From Antedon mediterranea (lineage: Eukaryota > Echinodermata > Crinoidea > Comatulida > Antedonidae), in contig NC_092672.1 in NCBI RefSeq assembly GCF_964355755.1, positions 7,006,001 to 7,070,000 of the forward strand: a DNA stretch of 64,000 bases, written 5' to 3'. The notes under the pieces are model-generated. The model did no database searches. It was not told the origin of the DNA and saw only the letters and a program-made list of their open reading frames with translations. The position numbers were made by a program, and so were the translations under genes. Positions 1-44,959 of the stretch are shown piece by piece (within the stretch, counting starts at the first letter, position 1; each line of letters starts with the position of its first letter).

Positions 1-9817
<9,817 letters not shown>

Positions 9818-23703: not shown

Positions 23704-23776
23704 ATGGCCGCTTGTCTTCATGTTATAAAACTGTTTATGCTGTTTTCGTCTTTAGCCTCAAGTGCTGATAGCAATG
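23704..23776 (+). CDS. Gene 2 candidate first exon: signal peptide
   Basis: ATG in GTAATGG context is followed by 24 codons with a hydrophobic core ([12 protein letters not shown]) and small residues ASSAD suited to signal-peptidase cleavage. The frame reaches a possible donor G|GTTCGT after 23776 in phase 1, which matches the phase-1 acceptor of the next exon at 25325. The donor is weak, which is the main doubt. Confidence 0.5.
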
Positions 23777-26700
23777 GTTCGTTTATTATTTGTATAGCTC
23801 TTTTTACATCATCATCATTAACATCATTAAAACCATGCTGTGGGTTTTTATGAAGCCTACACTGTATGCTACAGTTGGCCTTTATTATTAGGTGATGATT
23901 TAATTCATTAACAGCTGGACAGATTGTATGTGTAACATACTTCTTTCATTCAGATTCAGCATTATTCTTCTTCTTCTTCTTTTTTTTCTTCTTCTTCTTC
24001 TTCTTCAAGATGTTGCATTCAATTGCGGAACGTATCCCTCCTCCAAATCTCTTCATTTACTTCTCTCGTTTGCTATTCTGAACCAGTTTCATATTTATCA
24101 TCTCGATCCGTCTCAGTTTGGGTTTTCTCTTTTCCTTGATTGCCAAAGCAAACTCCTACTTGTCCATCTATTATCACGCAGTCTTGCAACGTGGCCTGTC
24201 CATCTCCAATTATTTTTAACAACTAGGTGGTACGCTCAGATGGTTCTCACATAGTAAACTCAGCGTAAAAAACTGGCGATTTCAAATGTACGTGCCACAG
24301 GACTATAAAATACATGTTTAGAGAAACGAATAAATAGACACGGTGATTCGTATGTAGTCAACTAAAATTAGCACCTGGGGAATACTTCCAAAAGAGAAAC
24401 TTGTCACAAAATTAGTTCAACTTTTTGAGTGTGTTTTGTGAAGGATGGTGAAAAGGATGGGTGCAAAGAGAAACAATGTTTAAATAAATGAATTTATCCT
24501 CTCAGTAACGAAATAAGTTTTACAAATAATATACCACTAAACACAGTAAGACATAATTTGTTAAAACTGTCACTGTCATAGTCGATTGAAATAGTAAAGT
24601 TCATGTAACGATACACCACTACGACGTTTATATTTGTGTAATTATTAATTAATACAAACGTTGAGAAGCAACTATCAGTAATAAAGTACCCACACTCACA
24701 GTAAGAAATTTGCGATTCAAATGGCGATCAAAAATATACCTAAAGTTTATACCCCAAGGGCCCATAAATGTACCTACTTGTGTTATACCAAATAGTTATA
24801 CTGGGAGATTGAGAGATTGGCATGTTCCATTTATCGCTAAGCAATACGTTTGTGTAAAATATTAAATCTATCAAAATAGTTTTTTTAAAGAAAATCGGCT
24901 TTTCTTCAACATTATGATTCTATCCTCGAGCTGTTTAACCAATTTTCAACTATTAAAACAATTATCGTAGATAGATAATGCCAAACATCCTCGTATTATT
25001 GTGTACCGGTATTTTTCAGCATCTAAATCCATTTGACAGTGTATACCACGATCGGAAAACACCCTTATTTGGGGAAAATCGTAAAACCCCAATTCGTTTT
25101 AATCGTCAATAAATAATTATCTAACTCAATAATTAGTAAACAGGGTTACACATCAGGTGGTTAAAAAATAGTGCCGAACGTACGAATTTATATACCATCG
25201 AGTAAAAATTCTAGAAGTAACGCACGATTTACCGAATTTTGCCTTTACGTAAATTTATTATAATATATTTTTTAATCTTTCTAATTAACTGATCTATATT
25301 GCTATCCTTTTTCGTTTCTTTTAGATTCAACTTTGTATCCAGATCCAGTCACCACATATCCAGATACAACCTCATATCCACATACAACCTCGTATCCAGA
25401 TAGAACCTTATATCCAGATTCAACCTCATATCCAGAATCAACCTCATATCCAGATACAACCTCATATTCAGATACAACCTTGTATCCAGATACAAAGTTA
25501 TATCTAGAAACAACCTCGAATCCGGATTCAACCTCATATCCAGATACAAAGTTATATCTAGATACAACCTCAAATCCAGATTCAAGCTCATATCTAGATT
25601 CAACCTCGTATCCCGATTCAACCATAGCCTTATATCCAGATTCAACCTCGAATCCAGATTCAACCTTAGCTTTATATCCAGATACAACCTCATATCCAGA
25701 TTCAACCTCATATCCACATTCTACCTCATATCCAGATACAACCTCATATCCAGATTCAACCTCATACCCAGATTCCACATCATATCCATATTCAACATTA
25801 GCCCTATATCATCCAGATACAACCTCATATTCAGATTCAACCTTAGCCTTATATTCAGATACAACTTCATATTCAGATTCAACCTCATATCCACATTCTA
25901 TCTCATATCTAGATTCCACCTCATATCCAGATTCAACATTAGTCATATATCCAGATTCAACCTTATATTCTGATTCAACATCGTCCGAATATTTTTACTG
26001 TGAGTGTAACGAATATTATTGATTTTGCAGTTCAGCTATAGTATACAAATAATGAATGTTTATGAGTGTAATGATACAAATAATGGCATGAGGTGAATGA
26101 TGAAAGGTTATATGAACGAGGCAACGCCGAGTTGATATAACCTTTCATCATTCACCAAATGCCATTATTTGTACCATTACACGAATATTAAACATTCATT
26201 ATTTGTTTTATATAACATCTAAATAGATTCCTGTCATTTGAATCAAATATGAGCTAGCCCTAGACAAGAGGCCTACATTTCATTCAGATTGATTAAAACA
26301 GTAACATTTGTTTTTTAATTTTATAATATTAAATGTTATATTTATATGGATTTTATAAACACACCTACTTTAGTGTTAATTATGTCAACAAACGACCAAA
26401 CAATCCTATGCCTAGCAAGGCTAAAACGACTAGGATAGGCCTAGCCTAATACTAACAGGCCTAGCTAGGCTAGACCTAGTACTACTACTACTCTAGTAGG
26501 CCTAGGCCTAGTACTAGATTGGCTGAAAGGCAAACTTCGACAGACAATTGGAACTTATCTTGGCTAATTATGGTTTTTCCAACGTCTTGTAGGGATGTCC
26601 CCATTAAATTCTAAAAACGATCTAAAGCTAATTTAAATGCCTTTTTGAATGAAATTAGTACATATAGGCCTATCTCCAAATCGTACACAAAAATCTGCTG

Positions 26701-29700
26701 CTGTTGCATATCTCGCGGTGGTGTTTACAAATAACAGAGGCAGGACGACCGGTGGCGCTGTTGTATTTCAATGTAGTTTTTGTATTCTAAATTTTTTTTC
26801 ATCCGCGAAACGTTTTTTGTTTTCCGTACACAAAATGTTTAAAAAAGTACTATTAAACGATCGTTTAATAGTGCGTACTATTGCATGCCATGTGACCCAC
26901 AATCGTCCAATCAAATGACAGGAATTTATTTAGGTGTTATATAATATCAATTATTGAATTGTTATGATTATTAAACCAGTTATGATCATCTTTTGGCACA
27001 CTGTAGTAATCAGGCTGCATCAATAATAATTGTAATAATTCATTTGGTTTAATATAATCATTTTTCCTACCATTGTAACATTTGTCATTGTCAATTGTTT
27101 GCAAGATGGATTTATAACTCTTGTTGGTGGCAATGTAAGAAGAGAAGGTCGCATTCAACTGGGAGGTTATATTTTTGGTACTGTTTGTTCTATTGGTTGG
27201 ACCGAAGCTGATGCTTCATTAGTCTGTGAGAGTCTTGGTTATGAAGGTGTTGAAGAACATTTAGTGCATAGATTCGGAGAAGGAACTGGGAAAATTTGGT
27301 CGAATATTAGTGGTTGTATTGGAGATCCTACGTGTACTCCAACGGATTCAACGGAAGATCCACAATGCACTCATGCAAATGATGTCGGGATAGTATGTTC
27401 ACCTTGTAAGTAAACAGGGAGATTTGTTACGACTAACCTAGGCCAGGTCAACCGATGTGTCGGCGGTCGTCGCCTGAACCCAGAATCCGTCAAATCTGTG
27501 TCGAGGTGGGGATCGCGGAAACACGTCCAAATAATTTCCTCATGTGCACAATCGAAAGCTTCTAATATTAAATTGTAATTTCAGAAATCATGTGTGAACC
27601 ACTTTGAAGCTTAATAACAAACGCTTCAACTTGTTTACCCCTTTTTTTAAAGTGACAATTCGACTTGATGGTGGTGAGAATCGGAATGAAGGGCGTGTAG
27701 AGTTCAATTATTTTGGTAAGTTTTCAACAATAAGGGATCTACATATCACCGAAGCCGACGTCATTTGTCGTTCGCTTGACTTTCCTTCTGCTGTGTTCTC
27801 GGATTGCTGTGGAATCTATGGTACTGCTTTTGACTTGCCTTCTTATTATGTCGAATGTGGGGGAAATGAGAAAGATTTATCTGGATGTTTGATGTATGCT
27901 TCTTATGATATTGATCAACAGTCTGGGATTAGATGTTCAACTGGTAAGAAAATGCAATGCAACATTTTTTGTTATTACAGTATATATATTTAAAGGTATC
28001 TGATGAGTTTAGAATTTCTTTTAAATATGTTAACATTTTCAACAAATTTAACCTGCACTGGTTATGTCAATGATAGTAAATGTATGACCATTATGACACA
28101 TTTACAACTAATAGTATTTTCTTATAAAGATTTAGTTTATATAAAGTCTTATTTCACAATATATTATTATAATACCAGCTCCTTAATTTTAGTACTGGGC
28201 CTACATCTGTATCAAAATGACGGAGAGAAGATTCTGGGTGACAATTATTATAGAGATAAACTGATAGATAGATAGATAGGCCTATTTTAAATATTAATTT
28301 ATCTTTTAATAGTGGTTATGATATTTCCTCAGATGGCGTAAGATTAACGGGACAGTTTGAATCAGACGGACTACTTGAAATCTTCACAAGCTCTGCGTGG
28401 CATAAAGTATGTTCGGTTGATTTTAACATTAAAGTTGGCGAAGTAATCTGCAGTCAACTCAACTTTGACGGTGTTTTAAATGTCACTGACATTGACAGTG
28501 ACAACGGAACAACAACCATACGAGAAATTAGTTGCACAGGAATGGAAATTAGATTTGAAGAATGCTCTTTCAATATTGTGCCTGAACAAATGTGCACAAG
28601 TTTTGTGAAGCTGTCATGCATTAGAAGTAAGCAACACGTACAAAGATACAGACAGTAATAAGCAGGGAAACAACATGGAGTCGATTTAGGGGCGTGTTAT
28701 GTAGGGTCATTTTTAAATTATCCTCTATGCAGTACAAATCTCAACACATTTATGTTATACAAACATTGATTATGCAATAGACTTCTGTAGTCTAGTCTGT
28801 ATTTTTTTTTTGTTAATCCACCGGTGGTTTAATTTTTGTCTGAACAAATTCGAGTAGTATATATATATATATATATATCGGTATATTTATTCAAAATTCA
28901 CATACAAATTACATACATGGCAGCACATGGCTGAATTGCATATGTATTACATTATAAAAACTATTTAAACTATAATCACTATCAACAAAACATACATATA
29001 TAAAAACGAATAAATTAGACTGCAGTTACCTCAAATAATACAAGCAAAAAAAAAAAATTACAGTTTGTTCAAAAGTTCAACCATAAAAGGGACAGGACTA
29101 GTTTGGAAACGTTTTGTTTTATAACTATAGTTTTCCACTTTACGATTATGTCTAAGGGTCATGCAGGATCTATACTGAGGGGCAGGGAACCAGGTGGAGA
29201 ATTGACCAGAGGCGTGTGCTTTAGAGGCAAAAACCTTGCAAGAGTGCCATCTTCTTGTGTGGAGTGGTTGAAGATTTAAAATGGCAAGAGAATCCGAGTA
29301 TGTTGTATACTCATTGCCCAACACAATCTTGCAGACACGCTTCTGAATCTTTTCCACCTGATTCACCTGTCCCTGCGTAAGACCTGCATACCACAAAGGG
29401 GCTGCATACTCAAGCACCGGTCTCAGATAACCTTTATAAACAGAAATAAGTTCATTCATCTTTTACCAATATTATATTCAGCCTATAACCAAGACATTTT
29501 ACATTAGAATGTCTACTTTGGACACCCATATTTAGATCTTTTCAGAAAACATCATTTTGGTTAACTCATGCGCGAACATGTCTAGTAAACAAACTTTTTA
29601 AATAATTAGTATAAATATGAAACGCCATGTGTGCCAAAATATGTATCTTTTACCAATATTATATTCAGCCTATAACCAAGACATTTTACATTAGAATGTC

Positions 29701-32700
29701 TACTTTAGACACCCATATTTAGATCTTTTCAGAAAACATCCTTTTTAGAGGAAACCTCTTTTTTGGCCTACACGTAAAACGAGGGACAGAAATTGTGTAT
29801 TACTAGCCTACAGACTCTCTATTGAGTCTCGAAAGTTTCCCTTTAATATTTGTCCACTGTTGTAAACATAAGACATTCTTCATCCAGCTACAACATTTTT
29901 AGTAGTGTTTTCCAATATACATGAGAATGTATATGACCTTTAATCAACAAAATATTGTTTCCTTGACAGAAAAAAATGTTTTAATAATGCAATACTGCAG
30001 CTAATAATCGTAGGCCATTTGTCTATAATAATTTGTATTAATAATATTTACAGGTGGATCAAGATTTGCTGATGGGTATACTAGGAACTCGGGGTATGCG
30101 CAGGCATATATAACTAGTAAATGGAATTATATTTGCGACAGTGAAAGAAGAGTTACTGAGTTTATCTGCTTACAGAAGCAATCAACTGGTGTTGACTTAG
30201 TACGAAACCAATACCTATTCTACGATTTTGATGATGAATACGCCGATTGTGACATCACACCTGAAAACAGTCTACAATGTAATCAAACCTCGGTTGATTG
30301 TTTTACTTTTTATCTTATTTACACGGAATGCTCAACAGGTATGGTATTTGATTGTTTTGTGTGCCATTCCGAAGTCCAAATCCTTCCTCTAATTTAAGCT
30401 TGGTTAACTCATGCGCGAACATGTCTAGTAAACACAAATAAATAAATCCTAAAAAAATATAAATGTTGAATTTTGTTATTGTTTCTTTTGCCTATCTGGA
30501 TATTGAATTATTTCTTCAAAATACCAAACTAAACATTTTGGCAAATTTTAGCCTAATACAGGTAAAATTAGCAATAGAAGTGACGGTACAAATCTTTTGT
30601 ATGTTAACAACAGTGAAAACTCATAAGCCATGCACTTGTGACGTAACAGAAATTTACGACGAATGGCTGTACGGCGAGCACGCGCGGCGATATCGTAAAT
30701 CTCGTGATTGTTCTGAAATCATATGTACATCCCTAATACGTTGTTAAAATATGGTTCTCGGTCAAGTTGTTCTTTAATGTTCGGATTAATATTTTTCAAT
30801 AACTGCTTTAAAATCAGAACGTTCATCCATAATATTTGTCATGGTCATCCGCATTATTACCATGCTGTCCGTCAATTTTAAGCCTCTGATAACAAATACA
30901 GTATAATGTCATTATAACGATAATCATCTTGTTATAATACACACTGGTCTCTGTGCCATGAACCTCGAGTACAAATCCCTCGTTCTCCGTATTTATGCCA
31001 TTTGGGGATTACGTCATTATTTAATCACGAGGTTCATGGCACAGAGACCAGTGTGTATTATAACAAGATGATTATCGTTATATTGTATTTGTCTGAGTTA
31101 CTCTCCGCTATTGAAAATATATATTTCAATAGCGGAGAGTAACTCATTTGTTATAAATATAAGCTTATGAGATAATAATAATGTACTGCAATTTTATTTA
31201 GATGTTGTACGAATCAAGGGAGGAGGTCATCGTGGATTTGTTCAAATCTTCAAAGATGGTAAATGGAATTATATTTGCAGTGAAAACTGGAATGTTCAGA
31301 CTACTGAGCTTGCTTGTAAAGAACTCAACTTTGGCTCCACTTCTACAGTGACTGGTGTTGGTGTAAACACAACCACTGTAGTACCCGATGCTCAGATCAT
31401 TATGTGTGATGGAAGTGAATCGAGTTTGCTGAATTGTCAATTTGATACCAACATGCAATGTAAACGTCATGCTGTACAAGTCACGTGTTCTGAGGGTGAT
31501 AATTTGTGATATTTTGCTACACGACTATTGTACTATTATTGTATTATTTTTGTATAAATTAATTAAATTTGTCTAGACCTATCCATATTATTTACTTATT
31601 TACTGTCACACTCGTACCATGTTGATGATAAGGAGTATGGGTATTTAGCAAGAATAGGATTACCTGTAGTAACTAGTGCTGATAAGTAACGACATATTTA
31701 TTTTATCTTAATATACAGTTGGTATACGTCTTAGAGGATCGCCAGTAAAGCATGCTGGTCGGGTGGAAATATACAACAACAATCAGTGGTGGACGGTTTG
31801 CGATGATTATTGGGATACCAATGACGCGAACGTGGCATGCATTATGTCGGGTTATACTGGAGCCACCAGAGGGTATCGCGAGGCAGCGTTTGGTGAAGGG
31901 GTTGGTCCTATTTTGCGCTATGATTTTTTTTGTGACGGTGATGAAGACGACTTATTTGATTGCCCATTTGGTACACATTTCGATGGATTCTGTTCACATT
32001 ACGAAGATGCAGGAGTGATTTGTTCTACAGGTACGTTTCAGATCTTTGTATATGTGTACCAAAATAATCCAAAGGCATAAGACCGTAAAGGAGTATGACT
32101 GGGTTTACATGCAAAATTCACACATTTTATACTTTTTATACTATAAAAAAAACACTACAAGACCTTGAGAGCTTATCGAAACATCCCGTCTTAATGTATG
32201 CCCTTTCACGGAATCGTCGAGTAATTGATTTTATTGTGTGCCGTGATTGTAATTTTTAAGATTAATTAAAGTGAATGTTTTCTTCCCTTTAACAGATATA
32301 ATTCGTCTTTCTGATGGAAGCCCATCTGCTGGTAGGGTTGAACTATTTATCAATGGCCAATGGGGAACGATTTGTGACGATAACTGGGACATAAATGATG
32401 CCAATGTTGTTTGCCAACAATTAGGCTTTGTCCGAGCTTCTAACGCATACGACAAGGCTAGATTTGGTCCTGGCAAAGGTCCAATACATTTTGATGAAGT
32501 TCAGTGTGCGGGAAACGAAACTGATATCTTACTGTGTAACACTAAAAGTATTCATGATTGTGAACATTCTGAAGACGCAGCGGTGTCCTGTGTTTCTGGT
32601 AAATATTGAACAAAATATATAAGTTTGGGTTTTTTTTTCACAGTAGATTTTCCGTCAGGTTGGGTATCTTTTTTCTAGTCAGACGAATATGTGGTGAATA

Positions 32701-35700
32701 TTAATTTACAACATTTTGTTGTTTCATATTTTTTTTTGGACCAATTAGTTTTGGCGAGTTAAGCTGTGACCGAGTTTACTTGGGCCGAGTTGCCTTGGGG
32801 TCGAGTTATGTATGGTATAATAGATGATTAAATATCAAATTACTTTCATCAATACGTAAAGCAATAGCGAGTATATAGGCCTAACCATTAATTGACGCTC
32901 CGTTTATAAGAATCAACCTTAGTTCATTGTTGTATTATTTGTCTAATTTAGATTCATTTGTTACTCCAGCATGGTTAAAACCATTTAACAGTATTCAGAC
33001 GAAAGGTAAGTTAGCATAAGGTCAGTAATAATAAAGTAAATGTTATATTAATGAACAACAATAAGAATTATTATTCACATCTGTTCCAACATATTTTTCA
33101 TATTCTATAACATACTCATTTTATATTTATTTTCCAAAAGAAATGAAAATGGATAAGAATACAAGCAAAAGCATAAGTTTATAGAATAAGATAAAATGAA
33201 GCGATAATATTCACAGTAATAAACATAAACAAAAGAAAAGTAAAACATTTAATTTTACAAAATAAAAATAGCTTCTTTGAAACAAGCTTAGAAATGTTAG
33301 ACGATACCAATTTTGTTGAAAGAGCTATAGTGTAAAAACGGAGTATCTATCAGAGATCTTTATCAACTGACTGCTTGTTGAATCCAATAGATTCAGAACC
33401 AGTTACAGAATAGAATTCTTGGTAATTTAAATTAAGCGAATCAGCAAATCACCCATCATAAATATTGAATATTCAACAAAGTGTTCAATTTTTGTTTGCA
33501 GGTTGTAAAGACTATTGGTTTCAAAACGATAATTCTTGTCTAACAGTTATACATACAGAGTATAGTACTACGCTTTCCGAATTGTCTTGTCCAGAAGGAT
33601 CGTCAGTTCTTTCAGTAGACACAGAAGTAGGAATGTTTAGAGAATATCTTCGAATACTCTATTACTATTATGAAGAAATCACTCTTCAGGTATATCTTTG
33701 GCAAGATGGTGAATCAGAAATGTGCACCTTTTTAAATCTTACTGGTAGTACTGGAGTGGGCCTAACATGGGCTATGATTAATGTACCGACAATACAATGT
33801 AACTACGTCGATGCTTATGTATGTAAAATGGATATTGAAGGTACAGTAATTATAATGTCACTATGGCATTGTTCATTTGTATATTAATCATCTACTGATG
33901 ATAATATTATTATTAATATTAAGTCGAGGTATGTGGTTATCACGTGTTCAACAAAATTCTATAGAAAGAGGTTCAGTACAACATACAGTATTTTTTAAAT
34001 ATACACCATCACATACCTAACATTTTAAAGTATTTATTAAATTTAAATTTTAGATCAATCTCAAACATGTTCAAGCAATCAATTCAGATGTTTATCTGGC
34101 GCTTGTATTCTAAAATCGTTACAATGTGACGGAAACTTCGATTGCCCTGACAACAGCGATGAAGATGAACAATGTATTCAAGGTAATATAGTAGGCCTAT
34201 ATCAGTATTACTCTCGAGATATTCTCGTGTATTTCACGGTGGGATTTCGCGACGTATGCATCTGAAGGGAATTCTTTCTTCTGCGCAGACAAAAATGTAT
34301 AGGCCGAATGAAGATAGTTACCACCGGTAAAGTACTATAGGCCAGGAGTGAGTAGTTCTTCTTTAGAAGAATGGCTATAGCCTAGGCTTCGCATATTTCA
34401 TATGTATCAATATTATTGCGGGTTTTCTTATTTTAGAGTGTTTCGATTCGTTGGACGGCCACGACTATCGAGGGACAAAGAACAAGACAACAAATGGAAT
34501 ACGTTGTATAAAATGGACAAGTAATTTTAAAGGAACTGATGCGATATATCCAGTAGATTACATTGGAAAAGGTATTGGTGATCACAACTTTTGTCGGAAT
34601 CCAAACGGAAGACAACAGCCATGGTGTTATACAGAGGATTTTTATGAAGTAGAAGATTGTGAAATTCCAGTTTGTGGTAAAGAAATGGATATCAGAGTTG
34701 TTTACCATATCATGTTTTTTTTTGTATATTTCGTTGCCTTATAGATGCACCTTGCACTATTTGGGCAAGTGCCACTGTGTGTGTAAAAATAAAAGTGTAA
34801 ACTCCAAATAATAATAGTATTATTATATTGTATACGGTATTCGTTTAAAACAATTAAGGCCATCTCAGAGAGCGTCGTACGACGAGGCCCCCGACGAGTT
34901 GTCTCGAAGAATAAAATAAAATATGTTCTCGCGATGACGACCTAAAACCTACGCTCGACGCACTAACTCCTCAAGACGACTCGTCTCGTCAGGATTCAAC
35001 AATTCAACACCGACGAGTCAAGACGTTTCGTTTCAACAAAACCTATTAATTTTTGGTAACAAGTTGTTTGTAGGCCTACAACTATTTATTTGGTTATAAC
35101 ACAATATCATTTTTTTTTTTTTAGATCAAGTTTCAGATGCAGATTTAAACAATTGTCCAATAACAAGCTTCCAGTGTTTATCAGGTCATTGTATTTCCTA
35201 TTCATTCCGTTGTGACCATAAACTAGACTGCCCAGATAGCTCAGATGAACAAGATTGTAGTAAGTTTATGTTCACATGACTGTTATTGTTATTTTGGATA
35301 AAGATTTGTGCAAAAAACAAAAATAAATAATTGTATACTTTGTTAATAGCGCACCGCATAGTGACTTGTTAGGCGCACTCACTGGACCACTAAGTTCTTT
35401 AAAATGCGCATAATACATGTTTTTTTTTAATGGTAGTATTCAGGAATTGCACCGATGTCGAGTTTTCCTGTGATAATGGACGCTGTTTACAATCTTCATT
35501 GCAATGTAACAGAATTAAAGACTGTTTAGATGGAACAGACGAACTAAAATGTGGTAGGCGGTTTTTCTTGAATAATGTCATAACATTAGCACAACATTTT
35601 ATTGTAAGGGGAGTTTACAGTTGGAGAGATTTGTTGGATTTTACAATGTATTATGCCTCATGTAATGTATACAACAACAAAAGACTGATAGTTTGTAGAT

Positions 35701-38700
35701 ACAAAATGGGAAGATCTTTAATGTATGGAAAATTAGACGTTAAACTAGTCGTTGAAGGTGAAGCCTGGAACGTGCCACACTGCAACTGCAATTGTATTAA
35801 AATAATTTCGCTCGAGCAACAAAAGTGCTCTCTATATCCATTTATTTTTTCTGGTGCCAGTGTCACTTTATAAAGTTATCTTTATCAGGTGAATGCAGCT
35901 CAGGTTTTTTACGATGTAGTGATGGTAAATGTTTGCACCCAAAATTCAAATGTGATCGAATAAGCGATTGTCCGAAAAGAATTGATGAGCCTAATGATTG
36001 CCGTAAGTCGTATCATTCTTTCAACAATCATTAATTGTAATAATCATCAGCAGAATATTAAAATAAATCATCGGGATAAAACCGATAAAATTGTAAATTA
36101 CTATATTGAATGAGATATCTATTAAACTTTACGGCAGAAAATAATAAATAATTTTGAAAAGGGAGATTAAAAAGAAACCTTTTGGTGACGTAACGTTGTA
36201 TTATATGTTATATTATATAAACAGCTTTGTTGGCAGACAAACTAAATACTAATAATTGGTTAACTCTTGTGTTGTCATTCCTATTATAGAATATACTGAT
36301 ACAAAATCGTTATGTAATCAAACAGAGATGGTATGCGAAAATGGCATTTGCATCGATCAGCGTCACCTGTGTCTATTAGACTACGATGTGTATTTAGACG
36401 TTATAACAGGTTGTCGAGATCGTAGTCACTTACAACATTGTGGTGAGTTGAGTTGTTTCATGTGTTGTGCAACGTTCTTGTATGTATTCAATATTATAAT
36501 CATACAACGATCCTGTTTATTCAGGAACGATGGTACTTGGCAAAACGGTATAGTTTAACTTATTCATAATGCGTAATATAAAGGTCTCATTTGCTTTGTT
36601 TTTCGTGCATTTTTCTAGACTTGTCACAAGTTATGAAACGCCATATATGCCTTTTTAAAGTCAAAATGCCTGTAGACCCGAAGACTAGCATATGAATGTA
36701 CTTTCACGTCAATTATTTGTTTATTATAAAAGTGTGGATTATTTAAAGTACGATTATTTTATTATTTATTATGATTACATGTCTTTACCCAGAGTAGCAC
36801 AAACAGTTTAAACTGGTTTACATTTGGGTCCTGCATACAACTTTATACATTGTTACAAACTCAGCAGAGACTTATTTATTAAGATAGATAGATACATCAA
36901 ACAATTTTGATTTGAAGACCCTTACAGAAGACTCGGTTCTCAAATCAACGGGCAAATTGTTCCATATATTGTTCCACTAACACAAGAACTCCCTTTTTTG
37001 CAAACGTTTCTAACGCTTTAAATCATACTTTGTGTCGTGTAGCTTCATTCGAGTGTCCAGCAAACACATACAAATGTCCGAGCTCGTACTGCATAACAAT
37101 CAAAAGCCGATGTGATGGGCGAGATGATTGCGAAAATGGAGAAGATGAACAGTATTGTGAGGATTATAACTGTCCAGGATACTTCAAATGTCAAGATGCG
37201 TCAAATTGTATTTCTCAAGATCTTGTGTGTGATGGCATCAAAGACTGTCTTCGTGGGGATGATGAACTTTTTTGCGGTAAGATGTGATTCAAAATTCAAA
37301 AAATATTAATACTAAATAAATAGAGAATCAGTCATAAAATAAGTAACACAAAGTGTCATCCATGTGTTCTAGATTATTTGGATACGTTGATTTAGGAAAA
37401 AAAGAAACCGTAACTAATTGATCTATTTAAGATTTATACATTGTTGATAGGTGTATGATCCTGATCCTAATTTAACCCTCGGAGAAATATAATAGTCTCC
37501 TAAGAAGTTGTTACTACAGATTTAATTAGTACTATTTAATTTTGTCTTGCTATGATTTTATATATTTTTTCTAATAATACTTACATCTACCAAGAAGTAG
37601 AACGTAAATGTGCGTAAGTTCTACGTGTGTGATGTGAATTACACTTGTGTAATCTAATTGATTTACATTTCCCTTTCTTGCCTAAAATAATAAATTGTTT
37701 AAACTACTTTTTCATTGATAACGTCTGCCATAGATATACAGTGCCCTAACGGGTGTGTCTGCCAGGACCTTTCATACAACTGTCATGGAGTAGAATGGAC
37801 AGCAGAAAAAGCTGCATTAATTTCGCCAGATGTACGATACTTGTAAGTATAATAATTTATATTTTTATATATGTATTGTTTATAAAAAGAAACATTGTTT
37901 CCTTGCACACATAAGTCCATGTATATATATGCACGCGCACACGACACACATACATATACAGTCCATACAAAATTTGTCGCAGCCAATCAGAAGATCAAAG
38001 GACTGTTAGAACTTGGTCCTATTGGCAAGACGAGCTCAACATCATGTTGTTAGATTGCCTTGATATTAAATAAGTTCTTTTTTGTTTTCAGAAATCTAAG
38101 CAATGTATCTATAGTTCCTTCAGAAGACACGGGTGCAGATCTGCTATTCTTAAATCCCAGTATTTTCAAATTTAATTTTGTTTTGTAAGTTAAATTAAAT
38201 AAAAATACACACTAAGCTTGTTTAAATAATATGTATGTCTAGAGATAAAAAAACTATGAGTAGCTGCATTAGTACTTATACAGTATATTCAAGTATTTTG
38301 TTTACACTTGTAGATGTAGTATAACTATTGTGCTTTTTCATGCATTTTCTTTTATAGAGATATCTCTGGAAACAATATAAAGAAACTAACAGGTGAAATG
38401 TTTTATCAGTTAGACCATCTGACAACTCTGTAAGTCAACATCACAATTTAGTACCACATTTACACAGAGTTTTTAAAATTCCAATGGTCGTTGCATCGTC
38501 AATAGACGTAATAGGGGCCCGGTCACAACGCGGCACAATTCAACAAAATAAATGCACCCGATTCTGTGGCTGTTACTAGACTCTCTGTGGAAGACTGTCT
38601 ACCAGATACCTATCTAACTGTATTAAGTACTTTTAATACAAGATATCTCTGACGTCAATAGGTTCCTATCTAGAGACAATGTATAACCTTATAAAAATGT

Positions 38701-41700
38701 ATTCATCAAATGCACCGGAAACCAGAATAGCAGGTTTATCGTAAATAAAACGAAATTATTATACAAATAATGAATGTTTATGAGTGCAATGGTACAAATA
38801 ATGGCACGAGGTGAATGATGAAAGGTTATATCAACGAGGCAAAGCCGAGTTGATATAACCTTTCATCATTCACCAAGTGCCATTATTTGTACCATTACAC
38901 GAATACAAAACATTCATTATTTGTTTTATATAACATCTAGACGTTTTTTTTTCGTACACAAAAATGTTTCAAAAAGTACTATTTAACGATCGTTGAATAG
39001 TGCGTACTATTGCACGCCATGTGACCCACATTCGTCCAATCAAATGACAGGAATTTATATAGGTGTTATATAAAAACGTATATTTACCTATTCTAGATAC
39101 ATGCAAGGCAACAATATAGCATCATTCGAAGGTGATGTCTTTCAGGATTTAAAACAATTGAAATATCTGTAAGTAAACCATGTTAAACCTATATAGAGTA
39201 GGCTAGTTTTAGTTGTGTAGGTAAACGTTTGTGTTTATTTTTTCTAAAATTAATCTGAAGCTCATTAAACATGTTTAGTTAAATTTCTTTATACCGCTAC
39301 AATAATAGTAGACTATATAATACTTTTACATAAAAAATACTATGGCAACAGCAGAAAATTGCCGTACATTTTGGAACTAATTGTTTATTTGTTTCATTAA
39401 CAGTAATATCCATGGTAATGGATTGGAATCCATCGGCAGAGGAACATTTTTCGGATTATCAAAACTCGAGTATTTGTAAGTATAAAGTATTTTAGATGTA
39501 CGTGATGGGTGACATTGTATGGGTTAATGGAGAGAACACCTTACAATTTAAATACAAAATAACAGAAAAAGATACAATTTAATTCCTAAGTAAAAGTGTA
39601 TATGTATAACAGAATGGTTCTGTGGTAACATTATTTATGTGTGCTCTATTTTAGAAATATGTCTGGAAATAACATTGGTAACGTTGATAAATTGATATTC
39701 AAGGACTTGATGTCTCTTAAAACATTGTGAGTAATGTATATAATCTTGTACTTTGGAAAATGGAAGTTACAGTACAATAAATGTATGTCAATATTGTGTC
39801 AGAGTAGCCTAGATATAATATAGACTTGCCCCAAGTCTGTATTATCTTTTTTTTTTATTTATTTTTTTTTATTTCGACCGCGATTTTTGTCTGAAAATAC
39901 AGACTTGTGAAACACGTATAGAAATCGATTTGCAGACCGCAAACATACGATAAGAATGACGTAGGTTATCATACCGTATTTGGCTATATGGGGCGGGCGG
40001 TATGTAAATATGGATTTCGAATCAACCAATGATCATTTTGTTTCAAAATGAAAGAGATCGAGTACGTAGGCCTACCAGTGCTTAATGTACGATCGAGACT
40101 GTTGAAATATAAAATAGTAATGCCAAGTTGTTTTGTTTATTAATTGTTTAGTCCTTGGCCTAGGCCTCTTTCGTAGGTCCTACTCAACTCGCACGTATGA
40201 CCTGCCAATTAAAACGCCAAATGAAGTAGGCCTACATACCACCGGCACACAACAGGGCTACACCACCACACAGAACAGGACAGGGTCTGGGTGGGAATTA
40301 AATCAAAATTATCTCCGCGTAATAAATGATCCATTCAATGTTTGATTTGCGGAGAAGCTAGCCTATCATATATCAAGACGAGTTTTCATGTTTCAAAGAT
40401 CCCATCAAATGTTTACCAGACTACTAGGCATATAAAATAATTTCTAGCCTTCAGAACTTTCATAAATGTACCCAAGTACACATTGTCTAAACGTAACATA
40501 GCGCATCCGCATCATCTTAGTTGTTGAGCTTTTGAAATTCTTAAATATGAATATTTAAACGGTGTTCGAGAGAGTAGCCAATCGCATGCAGCTGAAACTA
40601 GTCAACCGGATAATCGTATGCACCAAGAATTCTTGGTGTCAAACCACGTGACTTGTGCGTGTTTCCCCAGACGGAGTATCCAAAATCAAGTAGTATACGT
40701 ATGAAACGCCATATGTGCCAAAATATTTATCTTTTAACTAATATTAAGACAAAACTCAGTCTGGAACCCAGACTACCTAGATATAGAGAGATGAAAGAGA
40801 AATACTCGTCTACAAAGTATATACAGTAGCTCTTGCTCTTATAGCGGTGTTGTGTCCATGTAGGAACCGAGCTTCATGAAGTAAATCTTTCATTTCAGAA
40901 TATCTGATGATTATTCATTTTGCTGTTTGTTGGAAGATGTTGGTTTTAACGAAGTTGACTGTACGCCAGATGCAGACGTGTTTTCATCATGTGATAACCT
41001 TATGCAGAATGTGTACCTTAGAGCTTTCTTATGGTTATTTGGACTGAGTGCACTTCTAGGAAACAGTTTTGTAATCTTATGGCGATGGATAAATTGGCCT
41101 GCAAAGAAAAGTCCATCTTACACACAATCGTTTCTAATTACTAATCTTGCAGTTGCCGATATGCTTATGGGGTTGTATATGTTGATCATTGCCAGTGCCG
41201 ATTCCTACTATCGGGAAGATTACGTCACACATGATAGCGAATGGAAGGCCAGTCGAATATGTACGCTTGCAGGAATCTTAGCCTTTCTATCCAGTGAATC
41301 GTCTGTGTACACTCTAACCGTCATTAGCTGCGACAGGTTTTTGCACATTGCATTTCCATTTCGCCGTTTTCATCTTACACAAGAAACAGTAAAATTTGCA
41401 GTAGCTGTCGGATGGTTTCTGACCCTCGTCGCGAGTATTCTGCCAGCATTACCAATCCCGTACTTTAACGATGAGTATTACGGTGTCACCAGCGTGTGTC
41501 TTGCATTGCCATTGACGTCGGAAAAAGTCAGAGGATGGGAATATACCACTGCGATTTTTATAGGTTTTAATTCGTTATGCTTCTTGCTAATTTTTGTTTG
41601 TTATTCAGGTGTGTTCATTTTAATAAAGATATCGAATAGTAAAGTAAATCAAGCAGGACACATGAATTCTGACAAGAATAAGCACATTGCAATTGCTATA

Positions 41701-43249
41701 CGAATGGCTGTTATTGTCGCTACAGACTTCTGCTGCTGGGTACCCATCATAGTAATGGGTATTTTATCATTGACAACATCTGTTAACATACCGGCCACGG
41801 TATATGCTTGGGCTGCAGTCTTCATTTTGCCAATAAATTCAGCAATTAACCCATACTTATATACAATAGCATCTTTAAAGAAACTTCAAAGGCAACTAAA
41901 ACCTTCTAAACATGTATCAGAAAGTATGCCATCTACGGAAAGAACAAATATGAAAATTGGTATGTAAAGAAAAATTATCTATTTCTTTATGTAATTAGGA
42001 TGATAAATCGCGGTTACTGTTACTACAGAGAGAAAAAAAAAGTGTTTTTATTCTATATAAATAGTTTGATCTAAATTTAAACGAACATTTATTTTTAGTA
42101 CGTTTTCTAGCCCTCTAAGTAATAATAATGGAAACTGTTTTCCAAGGGTCCCTACGTTAATTATTTTATAATTGATTGTTAAATTTTGTTATGTTTGTCA
42201 CGGAAACTTACCGTCATCCATCACGTCACATTGTCTCTCTCCACCTAGTTACAGAAAGAACCACAAGCAATTATTATAGTCATGCTTTTAACTCATGTTT
42301 TTGTCATTGTTTACTCAGAAGGTGTAACCATCCCACGAAATCAAAAAGAGCAATCTACCGTTGAGAAAATCGAAGCTATGTTATCAACTGGAACAGATAG
42401 ACATGGGAAAGAACTGGATGCAGACGTACGTAAACACCTTTCAATGGCGTTGAGATTTGCTAAGCAGCAACAGGCTGGAATTGTACAAGTAAGAACGTTT
42501 ATTTATATTCTTATGTAAGTACACATCACAAAATAGAAACATTTCTGAATAAAATGACAATTCGGCGGGTAGGCCTGTCAATAGCTCGATCTCAATGGAG
42601 ATTCAAATAAAATATGCAACAATATAAATCTGAGCTTTCTCTAAACGGTATAATCATTCGTCAGGGCAAAACTAATGAGTTTTGAGCAAGTTGCTTATCT
42701 TTTTACAATAACGAATCATACGTCACTTATAGATGTCTCGTCTATCAAGACGACACACTTTTTCAGCATTAAATGACAGTTCCAAAATAATATCGTCCGA
42801 ACAATATCATTGTCTCTTTCATTAATTAATGTTAAAAATGTTTTCTTCTGAACAAATATGTTTGTACAATTTTTTGGTTGGATATGTCATTTTTAATTTA
42901 CAATAGTACTTTACAAAAATGTTTTCATGTAGTAAATTAGGTTCAGTTATATTAGATAATGCAAGTCGTTCCTGTGTTGTATCTAAAGGAACAAATGATA
43001 TGTCGTGTAAATGACAATAAAGATGTATGGATTGTTCTGTTTGGTTTCTTGCAGGTTGAGGTTGAGGATTGTGTGGAATCCGAAGAAAACACACCAGAAG
43101 AACCTGAAGACACTACAAAAAATCGATCTCAAGACGAAACACAAGAACGAAGCGTATACTGTATAGGAGTATCTAATCCTGCTTACGACAACGAATCATA
43201 CGTCACTAGAAGTCTCGCCTATCAAGACGACACATTTTTTCAGCATTAA
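23704..43249 (+). CDS. Gene 2: giant mosaic LRR-GPCR (mucin-SRCR7-CTLD-LDLa-kringle-LDLa-LRR-7TM)
   Basis: Exons: 23704-23776, 25325-25999, 27106-27405, 27653-27943, 28333-28626, 30054-30338, 31202-31495, 31719-32030, 32296-32598, 32952-33005, 33502-33840, 34054-34182, 34437-34676, 35125-35259, 35437-35553, 35889-36002, 36290-36442, 37043-37276, 37734-37842, 38092-38184, 38358-38429, 39097-39168, 39404-39475, 39655-39726, 40899-41959, 42319-42488, 43055-43249. Phases match at every junction, and the total of 6258 nt gives 2085 codons plus stop. The core from LDLa to 7TM is a relaxin-receptor/GRL101-type LGR. The SRCR, mucin-like, lectin-like and kringle parts suggest adhesion or recognition at the cell surface (inference). 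Least certain are the first two exons. That 27106 onward belongs to this transcript is supported by phase and spacing only. A split into an SRCR gene and a GPCR gene near 33 kb is the main alternative. Confidence 0.75.
23955..24007 (+). repeat. (TTC)n microsatellite
   Basis: CTTCTTCTT tracts interrupted by a T run lie in the putative first intron of gene 2. The poly-Leu frame here is a by-product. Confidence 0.9.
24420..25260. repeat. Dispersed repeat X, copy 2
   Basis: Shorter, more diverged copy of the repeat at 22140-23195, located in the putative first intron of gene 2 just before the mucin-like exon. Confidence 0.7.
25325..25999 (+). CDS. Gene 2 candidate exon: mucin-like (SYPDST)n repeat stalk
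   Basis: A strong pyrimidine tract and TTTTAG precede 25325, and ACT|GTGAGT follows 25999. It is phase 1-1 and 225 codons long, open throughout. The product is an 18-bp/six-residue repeat around SYPDST, with variants such as TLYPDT and SNPDST, and no cysteines. Ser, Thr and Pro density suggests an O-glycosylated extended stalk (inference). The complementary strand is also open in two frames, but only this strand has matching splice sites and phase. Confidence 0.6.
26042..26943. mobile_element. Composite MITE: long hairpin next to a 33-bp-TIR element
   Basis: 26042-26206 is an almost complete inverted repeat of about 75-bp arms centred near 26128. Directly adjoining is 26209-26943, which has 33-bp terminal inverted repeats (TATATAACATCTAAATAG... 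and its inverse ...TTTAGGTGTTATATA, three mismatches). A shortened copy lies at 38762-39072 and is absent from the matching intron of gene 3. No transposase frame was seen. Confidence 0.75.
27106..28626 (+). CDS. Gene 2 exons: SRCR domains 1-3 (27106-27405, 27653-27943, 28333-28626)
   Basis: Three phase 1-1 exons of 100, 97 and 98 codons, each encoding one scavenger-receptor cysteine-rich domain. SRCR1 has [27 protein letters not shown] and a final GIVC, SRCR2 has [14 protein letters not shown] and GIRC, SRCR3 is more diverged ([14 protein letters not shown]). The family serves in ligand and pathogen binding in secreted and membrane proteins and is greatly expanded in echinoderms. Confidence 0.85.
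28856..29459 (-). mobile_element. 5'-truncated LINE fragment (RT-protein C-terminus)
   Basis: On the minus strand a 133-residue frame (29058-29459) encodes the end of a non-LTR RT protein ([32 protein letters not shown]). The 3' non-coding part ends in a TA repeat at about 28857-28878. The plus-oriented SRCR exons flank it, so it lies in an intron of gene 2. Confidence 0.85.
29460..29742. repeat. Pair of ~84-96-bp direct repeats 187 bp apart
   Basis: 29460-29543 and 29647-29742 are nearly identical (beginning CTTTTACCAATATTATATTC). The first lies against the 5' end of the truncated LINE. Between them is a short piece related to the receptor 3' flank (AACATGTCTAGTAAACA) and a GAAACGCCAT motif shared with 36.6 and 40.7 kb. 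Confidence 0.85.
30054..30338 (+). CDS. Gene 2 exon: divergent SRCR domain 4
   Basis: Phase 1-1 exon of 95 codons with acceptor TTTACAG and donor G|GTATGG. It retains SRCR features (KWNYICDSE, then FICLQ and a terminal Cys) also seen in SRCR5 (KWNYICSE), but the middle is rich in Tyr and Asp and does not fit the consensus well. Confidence 0.7.
30397..30777 (+). repeat. Fragment of receptor 3' flanking sequence inside a gene 2 intron
   Basis: Colinear with the region after the stop codon of gene 3 (about 50800-51130) and partly with 9479-9532 after gene 1. It shares ATAAATGTTGA, AACATTTTGGCAAAT, GAAGTGACGGTA and the GTACATCCCTAATACGTTG block. Confidence 0.8.
30899..31145. repeat. Fold-back element plus a separate perfect hairpin
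   Basis: About 65-bp arms (30899-30971 and 31030-31092) are inverted copies (for example ACACTGGTCTCTGTGCCATG and its reverse complement) around a 58-bp centre. Immediately after, 31095-31116 and 31124-31145 form a 22-bp perfect stem with a seven-base AT loop. It lies between SRCR exons 4 and 5. Confidence 0.85.
31202..32598 (+). CDS. Gene 2 exons: SRCR domains 5-7 (31202-31495, 31719-32030, 32296-32598)
   Basis: Phase 1-1 exons of 98, 104 and 101 codons. SRCR6 and SRCR7 are canonical six-cysteine group-A domains: [20 protein letters not shown] and [42 protein letters not shown]5 is somewhat diverged. All acceptors have good pyrimidine tracts and the donors are GTGATA, GTACGT and GTAAAT. Confidence 0.9.
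32952..33005 (+). CDS. Gene 2 exon: 18-codon linker
   Basis: Acceptor TTTAG and donor G|GTAAGT enclose 54 nt, phase 1-1, reading [17 protein letters not shown]. It has no cysteine and is probably a spacer between the SRCR array and the lectin-like domain. It is called from splice signals and phase alone. Confidence 0.55.
33502..33840 (+). CDS. Gene 2 exon: C-type-lectin-like domain
   Basis: Phase 1-1 exon of 113 codons. It begins [14 protein letters not shown] and ends CNYVDAYVC, the Cys frame of a CTLD. The calcium/sugar motifs EPN/QPD and WND are not visible, so classical carbohydrate binding is unlikely. Gene 1 has the end of the same domain at 1-84. Confidence 0.75.
34054..34182 (+). CDS. 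Gene 2 exon: LDLa module before the kringle
   Basis: 43 codons, phase 1-1, six cysteines and calcium box CPDNSDE. Same length and position as gene 1 exon 287-415. Confidence 0.9.
34437..34676 (+). CDS. Gene 2 exon: kringle domain
   Basis: 80-codon phase 1-1 exon, six cysteines, with [18 protein letters not shown] and [10 protein letters not shown]. Very similar to the gene 1 kringle and in the same place between LDLa modules. Confidence 0.93.
35125..36002 (+). CDS. Gene 2 exons: three LDLa modules (35125-35259, 35437-35553, 35889-36002)
   Basis: Phase 1-1 exons of 45, 39 and 38 codons with six cysteines each. The first two have full acidic boxes (CPDSSDE, CLDGTDE), while the third has CPKRIDE, in which the Asp before the Ser/Asp/Glu is replaced. 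The start of the middle exon's homology (35460) is also the left edge of the segment duplicated into gene 3. Confidence 0.88.
36290..36442 (+). CDS. Gene 2 exon: divergent LDLa-like module
   Basis: 51 codons, phase 1-1, with [18 protein letters not shown] followed by [11 protein letters not shown]. It lacks the SDE calcium box, as do the equivalents in genes 1 and 3. Confidence 0.78.
37043..37276 (+). CDS. Gene 2 exon: double LDLa module
   Basis: A single 78-codon phase 1-1 exon encodes two complete LDLa modules (boxes CENGEDE and CLRGDDE). Gene 1 splits the same modules with an intron exactly at the boundary. Confidence 0.9.
37734..39726 (+). CDS. Gene 2 exons: LRR N-cap and five LRR exons
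   Basis: N-cap 37734-37842 ([14 protein letters not shown]), then LRR exons 38092-38184 (93 nt), 38358-38429, 39097-39168, 39404-39475 and 39655-39726 (72 nt each), all phase 2-2. LRR asparagines are seen in ISGNNI, MQGNNI, IHGNGL and MSGNNI. Two introns carry transposon insertions that are absent from gene 3. Confidence 0.9.
38762..39072. mobile_element. Deleted copy of the composite hairpin/TIR element
   Basis: It starts TATACAAATAATG, contains the long hairpin with centre near 38845, and ends GGTGTTATATA. It is absent from the matching gene 3 intron (about 47500), which defines its ends. Related to 26042-26943 with most of the interior lost. Confidence 0.8.
39818..40785. mobile_element. 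~0.97-kb insertion with target-site duplication in a gene 2 intron
   Basis: CCTAGATATA occurs at 39808-39817 and 40776-40785, but only once at the empty site in gene 3 (about 48252). The ends are small inverted repeats (AGACTTGCCCCAAGTCT near the left end, AGTCTGGAACCCAGACT near the right). No transposase frame is visible, so it is a non-autonomous element of unknown family. Confidence 0.8.
40899..41959 (+). CDS. Gene 2 exon: LRR hinge and complete 7TM domain
   Basis: Phase 2 start and phase 1 end. The cysteine-rich hinge (FCCLLEDVG...VDCTP...FSSCDNL) resembles relaxin-type LGRs. The 7TM has [47 protein letters not shown] (DRF in the DRY position), [14 protein letters not shown] and NPYLYT. 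Cys residues at the top of TM3 and in the second extracellular loop can form the usual disulfide. A rhodopsin-class fold is clear, while the coupling partner is not predictable. Confidence 0.93.
42319..42488 (+). CDS. Gene 2 exon: cytoplasmic tail, part 1
   Basis: Acceptor TTACTCAG; joining from 41959 gives [20 protein letters not shown] and a charged helical stretch ending [10 protein letters not shown], donor CAA|GTAAGA (phase 0). Nearly identical in gene 3. Confidence 0.85.
43055..43249 (+). CDS. Gene 2 terminal exon: acidic tail with NPAY motif
   Basis: Acceptor TTCTTGCAG, phase 0, 64 codons and stop TAA at 43247-43249. The first half is acidic and Ser/Thr-rich. The end contains [14 protein letters not shown], where NPAY fits the NPxY endocytosis / PTB-binding consensus and several tyrosines could be phosphorylated (family knowledge plus inference). 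The motif is retained in gene 3. Confidence 0.88.
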   Translation, partial: VEVEDCVESEENTPEEPEDTTKNRSQDETQERSVYCIGVSNPAYDNESYVTRSLAYQDDTFFQH

Positions 43250-43452: not shown

Positions 43453-44546
43453 AGTCGCGTGGAAGCGACTCTATAGTTCACTATGTCGGTCGGTCGGTCT
43501 GTCGGTCTGTCGGTCTGGTATCACTATGCGTTTTATCGCTTTCTGACCTTATCTTGATATCAGTTTAATCTAGCTAGGTCAATTTTTCACAGTATATTCC
43601 TTATGGCCAGGAATCGATGTGGTTATGTTTTCACGGTGCGCAATAAAAAATTACGTGGTCTACGCACGATTTAACGAAATCACGTTTGTAATCATATCTT
43701 CACAACCATGAATCACAATTAAATAAAATTTGGTACTCATAAATTTCAGGGCATAAATCCTCATATGGCAATAAAATTACGTGCGTAGCGCATGCAGTTT
43801 GGACAGTTTGGACACAAGATGGTCGCATACATACCATAATCACTGGCAGTAACGAGAAAGTTGTTTTATCCAGAACTTCCGATCTTAAACAATTACCTAA
43901 ATGTAAAAGGTAATGTGTAAGAATTTTAAATGTCCTAAATCTGTATTGTATTTTATGTAGATAAGATGATTTTAGATTTTATTTGTAACGCATGTAATAA
44001 ACCATTTAAACCAATTCAATTGTTAAACGAACATCGTACGGGAAGCCTTTTAGACAACGACGTAGACGACGCTGAATTACGTAACGACTCTATTGTTTAT
44101 CCTGCTTTTGGCATACTATGCAAATTATGCGAGATTGATTGTACAAAGGGTTTTAAAATTGGTCATTTAAATGTCAGAAGTCTCTATAATAAGGTGGACC
44201 ATGTTCGGAGTTTACTTTCGGAATGCCGTTTCCATGTTTTAGGAATTAGTGAAACCTGGCTAGATCAAAATATACATAATAGTGAACTTGCAATCCCAGG
44301 ATACCTATTAGTTAGAACAGACAGAAATAGACACGGAGGTGGGGTGGCTATCTATGTAAACGAAAATGTTGATTTTGATGTCATTGACTTTGGTGAAAAT
44401 ACAATTGAATCGGTATGGATAAAAATTAAGCCGGTTAACACTAAACCGTTCGTTATAGGTAATGTTTATAGACCACCAAATTCGTGTACTGGATTTGTTG
44501 ATATAATGCATGATCAAATATCTTTTATACTAGATAGTATAAGAGA
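43453..44546 (+). mobile_element. Repeat filler and LINE endonuclease fragment at the duplication junction
   Basis: From 43453, where similarity with the gene 3 flank stops, there is an AGTCGC-GTGGA-GCGACT hairpin and a GTCGGTCG/GTCTGTCG repeat of unknown origin. At about 44150-44546 a frame encodes the N-terminal part of an APE-type LINE endonuclease: IGHLNVRSLYNKVDHV, GISETWLD, RHGGGVAIYV, IGNVYRPPNS. The domain is cut before its catalytic DFN motif, where receptor sequence begins. The frame upstream (43966-44150) may belong to the same element. Confidence 0.8.
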
Positions 44547-44959
44547 GAGTTTTCCTGTGATAATGGACGCTGTTTACAATCTTCATTGCAATGTAACAGA
44601 ATTAAAGACTGTTTAGATGGAACAGACGAACTAAAATGTGGTAGGCGGTTTTTCTTGGATAACATGGCATAACATTAGCACAACATTTTATTGTAAGGGG
44701 AGTTTACAGTTGGAGAGATTTTTTGGATCTTACAGTGTATTATGCCTCATGTAATGTATAGAACAACAAAAGACTGATAGGTTGTAGATACAAAATGGGA
44801 AGATCTTTAATGTATGGAAAATTAGAAGGTGAAGCCTAGAACGTGCCGCACTGCAACTGCAATTGTATTAAAATAATTTCGCTCGAGTAACAAAAGTGCT
44901 GTATATATCCATTTATTTTTTCCGGTGCAAGTGTCACTTAATACAGTTATCTTTACCAG

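Follow-up and report, generated by a model that had tools for sequence, protein, structure and literature searches.

Gene model of the reference unit

A 64,000-nucleotide stretch of the genome of the crinoid Antedon mediterranea (hereafter the window; C3:7006001-7070000 of a genome of 354 Mb in 18 contigs) raises the question of whether a G-protein-coupled receptor may carry, in a single polypeptide, the SRCR, lectin-like and kringle modules encoded upstream of its LRR/7TM core, or whether two neighboring genes are being read as one. The unit at window positions 23704-43249 (plus strand) was taken as reference (unit T), and its exon chain was rebuilt from the raw sequence. The model consists of 27 exons, with GT-AG boundaries at all 26 introns and a single frame of 2085 residues with one stop, at 43247-43249. 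This is the chain described in the first-pass annotation, which had counted 27 exons in a continuous frame of about 2085 residues, and the four junctions singled out there (25999/27106, 32598/32952, 33005/33502 and 34182/34437) all fall on GT-AG sites. From the N terminus, the modules are a signal peptide, an S/T-rich repeat, seven SRCR, a linker, a lectin-like module, one LDLa, a kringle and six more LDLa; downstream of the LDLa array come an LRRNT, five LRR, a class-A 7TM bundle and a tail. Above its cut-offs, Pfam recognizes six SRCR stretches, six LDLa, the kringle, LRR_8 and 7tm_1. Hydropathy exceeds 1.6 (19-residue average) only at the N terminus and in the 7TM region, so the SRCR half appears to have no membrane anchor of its own.

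Exons 2 to 18 are all of phase 1-1, exon 19 is 1-2, and those of the LRR are 2-2. Because phase 1-1 is common among exons that encode extracellular modules, adjacent genes would join in frame too, and the continuity of the frame in T is weak evidence for a single gene. Frame continuity not being enough, paralogues were sought in the same genome; two papers that take mispredicted domain architectures as their subject (PMC3927609, PMC4967905) were a fair warning that such a test should be made. Eight units were considered as one clade (A, B, T, D, E, F, G and H), of which A, B, T, F and H were read at the sequence level and E and G were judged from match positions alone.

The LRR/7TM core

The core of T begins with the LRRNT (exon 19, 37734-37842), which together with five LRR exons directly precedes the hinge and the 7TM bundle. 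LRR1 (exon 20, 38092-38184) is 93 bp long, and the other four are exactly 72 bp each: LRR2 (exon 21, 38358-38429), LRR3 (exon 22, 39097-39168), LRR4 (exon 23, 39404-39475) and LRR5 (exon 24, 39655-39726). Hinge and bundle share exon 25 (40899-41959), which alone finds RXFP1 at E 1.4e-48, and the cytoplasmic tail is encoded by exon 26 (42319-42488; matched in F and D, weakly in H) and exon 27 with the stop (43055-43249; matched in F and D only). Pfam scores are 100 bits for 7tm_1 (PF00001) and 73.9 bits for LRR_8. Compared with solved structures, the LRR and 7TM parts of T are closest to RXFP1 (E 1.9e-69), in an alignment that spans LRR, hinge and 7TM, followed by TSHR, LGR4 and LHCGR. The sequence contains the motifs FSSC, NLAVAD, CDRF, CCWVP and NPYLY, and we take FSSC, CDRF, CCWVP and NPYLY to be the hinge, DRY-, CWxP- and NPxxY-type motifs, respectively.

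With a 7tm_1 bundle and LRR before the hinge, T has the features of an LGR, and with LDLa N-terminal to the LRR those of type C. RXFP1/2 (LGR type C1) resemble T in LRR, hinge and 7TM and include its closest solved relative, but RXFP receptors combine one or two LDLa with about ten LRR, whereas T has seven LDLa (one of them degenerate) and five LRR. GRL101-type LGRs, first found in Lymnaea, have several LDLa, LRR and a class-A 7TM, and their combination of many LDLa with few LRR is also that of T. For starfish, the RXFP-type receptors are described with one or two LDLa in the same work that equates the GRL101 type with LGR type C2 (PMC11863921), and the GRL101 ectodomain has been described as LDLa plus LRR (PMC8286064). 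The ectodomain of T departs from such a composition: the domain descriptions in PMC8286064, PMC6267866 and PMC11863921 give the GRL101 type without SRCR or kringle, and T adds seven SRCR, a lectin-like module, a kringle and a stalk. An ectodomain of LDLa and LRR only is not a strict property of the type, because snail members carry a lectin domain, as described in PMC12297450. No 7tm_2 or GPS/GAIN was found in residues 245-2085 of T with Pfam to E 0.001, which sets it apart from the adhesion GPCRs. By its LDLa and LRR counts, the core is a predicted type-C LGR with GRL101-like make-up. The first-pass annotation had called it relaxin-receptor-type, which holds for the RXFP1-like LRR/7TM part but not for the numbers of LDLa and LRR.

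Modules of the ectodomain

The signal peptide is encoded by exon 1 (23704-23776, phase 0-1), which has a weak donor, gttcgt, with identical letters in unit F, where the signal-peptide exon reads MAAYRHAIKLIMLFTTITSS. Exon 2 (25325-25999), also matched in F, encodes a stalk of 224 aa rich in S, T, P, Y and D and built on an 18-bp unit. The SRCR exons follow, each with six cysteines in T, in keeping with the six or eight of the SRCR superfamily (SRCR2 of A and B has five). Six of them pass the Pfam cut-off: SRCR1 (exon 3, 27106-27405, 54.5 bits), SRCR2 (exon 4, 27653-27943, 41.2 bits), SRCR3 (exon 5, 28333-28626, 53.5 bits), SRCR5 (exon 7, 31202-31495, 51.8 bits), SRCR6 (exon 8, 31719-32030, 83.4 bits) and SRCR7 (exon 9, 32296-32598, 103 bits), the most conserved, with 70-71% identity in A, B and H. 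SRCR4 (exon 6, 30054-30338) has counterparts in A, B, F and H but, searched alone, no Pfam match; a profile built from the family's remaining SRCRs gives it 19.9 bits in T and 7.9 bits in H, with negative controls at 3.0 and 0. The seven SRCR domains proposed earlier can be kept with the qualification that SRCR4 is degenerate. A linker exon of 54 bp (exon 10, 32952-33005, phase 1-1) is kept with its splice sites in F (94%) and H (59% of 17 aa).

The assignment of exon 11 (33502-33840, residues 961-1074, phase 1-1) to the C-type lectins is less clear. Pfam gives no match over its cut-off in any of four paralogues, one member finding UL45 (C-type-lectin-like) at E 0.089, below that cut-off. A profile of the exon searched against the PDB finds CLEC9A (two entries, E 0.02) and NKG2-D (E 3), with antibody chains (from E 0.16) and others between. 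By eye, its layout resembles a short CTLD, weakly supported by these matches, so the CTLD of the first-pass annotation is kept here as "lectin-like." A genome search at E up to 0.1 found six matches to this exon, every one inside a receptor unit of the clade.

LDLa1 (exon 12, 34054-34182, phase 1-1) is separated from the other LDLa by the kringle (exon 13, 34437-34676, phase 1-1), which scores 60.9 bits with PF00051 (cut-off, 34.3) and whose PDB list is topped by kringles of plasminogen, HGF and prothrombin. It has six cysteines in T, F, A and B and seven in H. Lysine-binding kringles have the anionic motif NPDxD as their signature; at this place, T, F and H have NPNGR, and A and B have NPNER, i.e., the lysine-binding motif is absent. 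Plasminogen-like lysine binding by the kringle of T is unlikely because NPNGR replaces NPDxD. The remaining LDLa are LDLa2 (exon 14, 35125-35259), LDLa3 (exon 15, 35437-35553), LDLa4 (exon 16, 35889-36002, 28.7 bits), LDLa5 (exon 17, 36290-36442) and LDLa6-7 (exon 18, 37043-37276), two modules in a single exon in T and F that occupy separate places in A, B and H. Six LDLa stretches pass Pfam unaided, and exons 12, 14, 15 and 18 have paralogue matches as well; LDLa5 is degenerate and stays under the cut-off (16.1 versus 24.1 bits), with matches in A, B and H.

A family of paralogous units

In genome searches with SRCR, kringle and 7TM, the units form a local array at C3:6.97-7.17 Mb, with one more lying 3.8 Mb away on the opposite strand, at C3:3.18 Mb; SRCR, kringle, 7TM and LDLa matches fall on C1-C11 only, out of the 18 contigs. 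In a tree of 20 7TM exons (20 of 30 loci, from this genome only), H, A, B, T, D, F and G form one clade with support of 100/100. Identity of the 7TM to T is 98.6% in F, 99% in D, 72% in H and 68% in A and B. When the exons of T were mapped to A, B, F and H, the matched exons were in identical order, the splice sites had the phases of T wherever an exon could be placed, and each of SRCR1-7 had its best match in its positional counterpart in A, B and H. Unit F matches all 27 exons. In A and B, the linker, LRR1, LRR3 and tail 2 were not matched, and tail 1 was unmatched in A and weakly matched in B; both have a conserved signal-peptide exon of their own 215-234 bp before SRCR1. H contains the linker and the five LRR, its lectin-like exon and tail 2 were not matched, and it offers several candidate signal peptides, none of which could be singled out. 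No S/T-rich stalk was found upstream of SRCR1 in A, B or H. The match positions of unit G indicate SRCR, lectin-like module, LDLa, kringle and 7TM.

Two other units lie partly or wholly in the window. The 3' part of B occupies positions 1-9216 (plus strand), from the end of the lectin-like exon through LDLa, kringle (1228-1467), further LDLa and LRR to the 7TM (8180-9216), whose frame is open to 9479; its SRCR exons precede the window (upstream, C3:6996001-7006000). Between the LDLa7 and LRRNT exons of this unit there is a long tandem array (4430-5600) of a acaaagttcgtcaacactt-like unit, and the overlapping open frames of 292-384 aa within it look like translations of the repeat rather than genes. 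Unit D (44547-50681, plus strand) is a recent, truncated duplicate that runs from part of LDLa3 to the tail. Its start adjoins an open frame (43942-44613) with an endonuclease-type match (PF03372, 30.9 bits), as if the duplication had broken, or an element had landed, at this point. Farther along the array, the 7TM frame of unit E (C3:7097364-7098436) is split into two overlapping pieces in different frames, likely a frameshifted copy near intact ones.

Divergence and selection among the units

The units span a wide range of divergence. Between T and B, dS is 1.30 for SRCR1-7 and 1.17 for the 7TM, with dN/dS of 0.27 and 0.17; exceptions are the kringle (dS 0.32, dN/dS 0.78), SRCR5 (0.77 and 0.59) and the lectin-like exon (0.98 and 0.56), and the LRR value was left out, the repeats being partly mispaired. 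Between T and H, dS is saturated in most modules, and pN is below pS in every module (for SRCR1-7, 0.33 versus 0.75). Alignment of T with B covers 3790 of 6258 exon bases and 209 of 13288 intron bases, and that with H covers 2062 exon bases and 119 intron bases (matches unfiltered for colinearity in both cases); A versus T, with 1473 intron bases covered, is a less clean pair. With introns that hardly align, high dS and order kept, the order of modules within the unit must have held through deep divergence.

Close pairs give a different view of the modules. In T-F, the SRCR exons give dN/dS of 1.19 (SRCR1), 0.65 (SRCR2) and 0.15-0.55 (SRCR3-7); the other ratios are 0.89 (lectin-like exon), 0.13 (kringle), 0.07 (7TM) and 0.10 (tail 1), and the values for LDLa2-7 (0.78) and LRR (0.65), also high, are both on a dS of 0.02. 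In A-B, the ratios are 0.95 (SRCR1), 1.08 (SRCR4), 0.75 (lectin-like) and 0.21 (7TM), with an LRR value of 1.59 on a dS of 0.02. Gene conversion between units, which would blur the contrast in dN/dS, is likely because dS varies widely among modules (from 0.02 to 0.35 in T-F). The pattern hints at a variable tip and falls short of proof for positive selection.

One gene or two

The main alternative to a single gene is that T comprises two neighbors, one for a secreted SRCR-lectin-like protein and one for a plain GRL101-type LGR (LDLa-kringle-LDLa-LRR-7TM), tied only by tandem duplication. All joins from SRCR to LRRNT are of phase 1-1, so a continuous frame would be expected anyway, and SRCR exons abound in the genome (408 candidates, of which 150 were scored); one cluster, on C7, precedes an LGR-like 7TM by 28 kb, and family-built profiles found no LDLa between the two. 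Such an arrangement is hard to reconcile with the order and phases kept in H and A/B after the introns had diverged. The gaps are also short: LDLa1 follows the linker after 373 bp in H and the lectin-like exon after 213 bp in T. As far as LRRNT, the exons that were found end in donors and not in stops, and the lectin-like exon is confined to the units of this clade (all six matches).

A separate LGR gene would need a start of its own. The introns between SRCR7 and LRRNT were scanned in five units for polyA-like hexamers, read-through, in-frame upstream ATGs and signal-peptide-like first exons. Signal-peptide-like ORFs and polyA-like hexamers are scattered in the introns, mostly in single units, as one would expect in AT-rich DNA. 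Among the best two candidates per intron, no signal-peptide-like first exon recurred across T, A/B and H; of the two recurring ORFs, one, located between LDLa5 and LRRNT, is shared by the close pair A/B, and the other, in B and H, is an alternative frame of the coding exon in the LDLa7 region. An internal promoter for the LGR half was rejected on these grounds, and the internal signal peptide near 33-34 kb, named in the first-pass annotation among the observations that would speak against one receptor, has no counterpart recurring in those units. Taken together, two genes seem highly improbable.

Co-occurrence in the genome points the same way. Both SRCR and kringle lie on the same strand no more than 20 kb upstream for nine 7TM rows of the clade (seven units; E contributes two rows, and the modules of T lie within reach of D) and for none of the 65 others, in a count that used 74 of 105 7TM rows and the 150 SRCR candidates, of 408, that were scored. 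The association of SRCR and kringle with the 7TM exceeds chance. Because order and phases persist in the paralogues after the divergence of the introns, a single gene is strongly supported, and we consider it very probable that T is one gene with one transcript. The first-pass annotation had proposed the single transcript from the continuous frame, a weak argument with phase 1-1 exons; the proposal now rests on the paralogues.

A single locus could still yield two kinds of product, if alternative splicing or internal promoters gave full receptors along with soluble SRCR ectodomains and short LGRs. Any of the phase 1-1 exons can be skipped without loss of frame, and some modules are missing among the paralogues (linker and stalk in A/B, the lectin-like exon in H). 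Set against this, the introns from SRCR7 to LRRNT contain no conserved alternative end or start in the five units, and we regard this variant of the single-gene model as rather unlikely.

Known receptors with similar modules

Recognition modules of the same kinds are known on other 7TM receptors. The adhesion GPCRs of amphioxus are listed with Kringle, SRCR, lectin C and LDLa, not necessarily on one receptor (PMC2246102), and those of sponges are described with SRCR repeats (PMC4302439). In tabulated data, 7tm_2 appears among the SRCR partners of A. planci (PMC10855680) and Kringle in a row of adhesion-GPCR domains (PMC12716839). As described, the amphioxus and sponge receptors belong to the adhesion family (7tm_2, many with GPS), whereas T has 7tm_1 and an LRR hinge and matches neither GPS nor 7tm_2. 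The earlier statement that no 7TM receptor with kringle and SRCR was known has to be narrowed, both modules being reported on adhesion GPCRs (PMC2246102, PMC4302439), but it may hold for class-A LGRs. In the mainly open-access topical literature, we found no precedent for SRCR or kringle on a class-A LGR, and these modules may be new on this receptor class, though not on GPCRs generally.

A close parallel among LGRs comes from the snail Biomphalaria sudanica, in which a GRL101 cluster with a C-type-lectin domain (SudRes2) is situated at a schistosome-resistance locus (PMC12297450). As in T, these are LRR/LDLa/7TM proteins with an N-terminal lectin-type module in a tandem cluster, and an immune role has been proposed for them; they differ in that the main text of that paper mentions neither SRCR nor kringle, and the lectin-like exon of T is under the Pfam lectin cut-off.

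Possible function

The reading we prefer, and hold to be moderately probable, is that a single gene, T, encodes a very large receptor of class A, namely an LGR of type C whose make-up resembles that of GRL101. With more confidence, we infer that its product would be a membrane receptor signaling through G proteins. The LGR N terminus would have been lengthened by exon shuffling that added the kringle, the lectin-like module and seven SRCR, with an S/T-rich stalk in T and F. The distal SRCR/lectin-like array could capture an extracellular ligand, either the surface of a microbe or particle or a self protein that has been modified; occupancy would then be relayed by LDLa, LRR and hinge to the 7TM bundle, as happens in relaxin receptors, and the bundle would activate a heterotrimeric G protein. 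A recognition role of the distal modules, relayed in this manner, is the most likely reading of the ectodomain, although we put it forward with some reserve. Going one step further, the units may be a lineage-specific family of pattern-recognition GPCRs, in which SRCR/lectin-like arrays bind microbes or particles and the LRR/hinge relay switches a G protein directly. This is possible and still doubtful; if true, it would describe an innate sensor for large ligands that works without TIR, kinase or ITAM signaling, its diversity stemming from tandem duplication and a fast-evolving tip.

LGRs are best known as hormone receptors, and T might respond to an endocrine or paracrine peptide (an IGF- or relaxin-like ligand), the SRCR, kringle and lectin-like modules serving only to position the receptor or to concentrate the ligand. 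RXFP1 is the closest solved structure for LRR and 7TM, and a proposal of GRL101 as an IGF receptor is found in PMC8286064; but a peptide needs no seven SRCR modules, and lineage expansion with a fast-evolving tip would be unusual for a hormone receptor, so that this, too, is a tentative reading. A chemosensory or gamete/allorecognition receptor with no immune role appears unlikely. It would suit the large set of LGR-like 7TM matches in the genome (105, of all strengths) and the reported expression of starfish GRL101, higher in sensory tentacles than in tube feet (PMC6267866), but SRCR are treated in PMC7308585 in the context of immunity. If the large receptor that we prefer is real, a branch of type-C LGRs gained modules that otherwise occur on scavenger receptors and retained them through long divergence. 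A hormone-receptor core would apparently have been re-aimed at large ligands, providing a testable case for GPCRs as multi-domain recognition receptors, and this architecture would fit the snail schistosome-resistance region with its lectin-bearing GRL101 genes, as reported in PMC12297450.

Other LGR-like, SRCR and kringle loci in the genome

Many of the 105 LGR-like 7TM rows are 42-50% identical to T, and the weakest are 22-30% identical. One GRL101 orthologue per ambulacrarian species studied is the count given in PMC8286064. After the clade, the next five 7TM matches (on C11, C4, C1, C7 and C5) have 46-50% identity to T, and each has a same-strand LDLa match ~5 to 27 kb upstream, which fits, as expected, with GRL101-type receptors. 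No scored SRCR (150 of 408 candidates) was detected within 50 kb of these five, and a kringle was near one of them, at 24.6 kb.

At C7:4.05-4.48 Mb, four SRCR clusters are each located 28-42 kb upstream of an LGR-like 7TM exon (7TMs at 4.08-4.48 Mb). One of these four units, 35 kb long and translated in three forward frames, was searched with family-built profiles (SRCR, LDLa, kringle and lectin-like) and gave three SRCR and then the 7TM, with no LDLa, kringle or lectin-like exon. The idea of a general linkage between SRCR and LGR in this genome was discarded, the architecture of the C7 unit being different from that of T and proximity alone being no evidence.

SRCR and kringle are also found together at C9:0.88 Mb, with no LGR-like 7TM match nearby. 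Neurotrypsin-type proteins combine a kringle and several SRCR, as T does, but they are proteases and not receptors. On C1, a strong kringle exon (20199973) is followed 24.6 kb on by a same-strand LGR-like 7TM (20224587), with an LDLa match between them, and this region (C1:20.20-20.22 Mb) is possibly a second kringle-bearing LGR.
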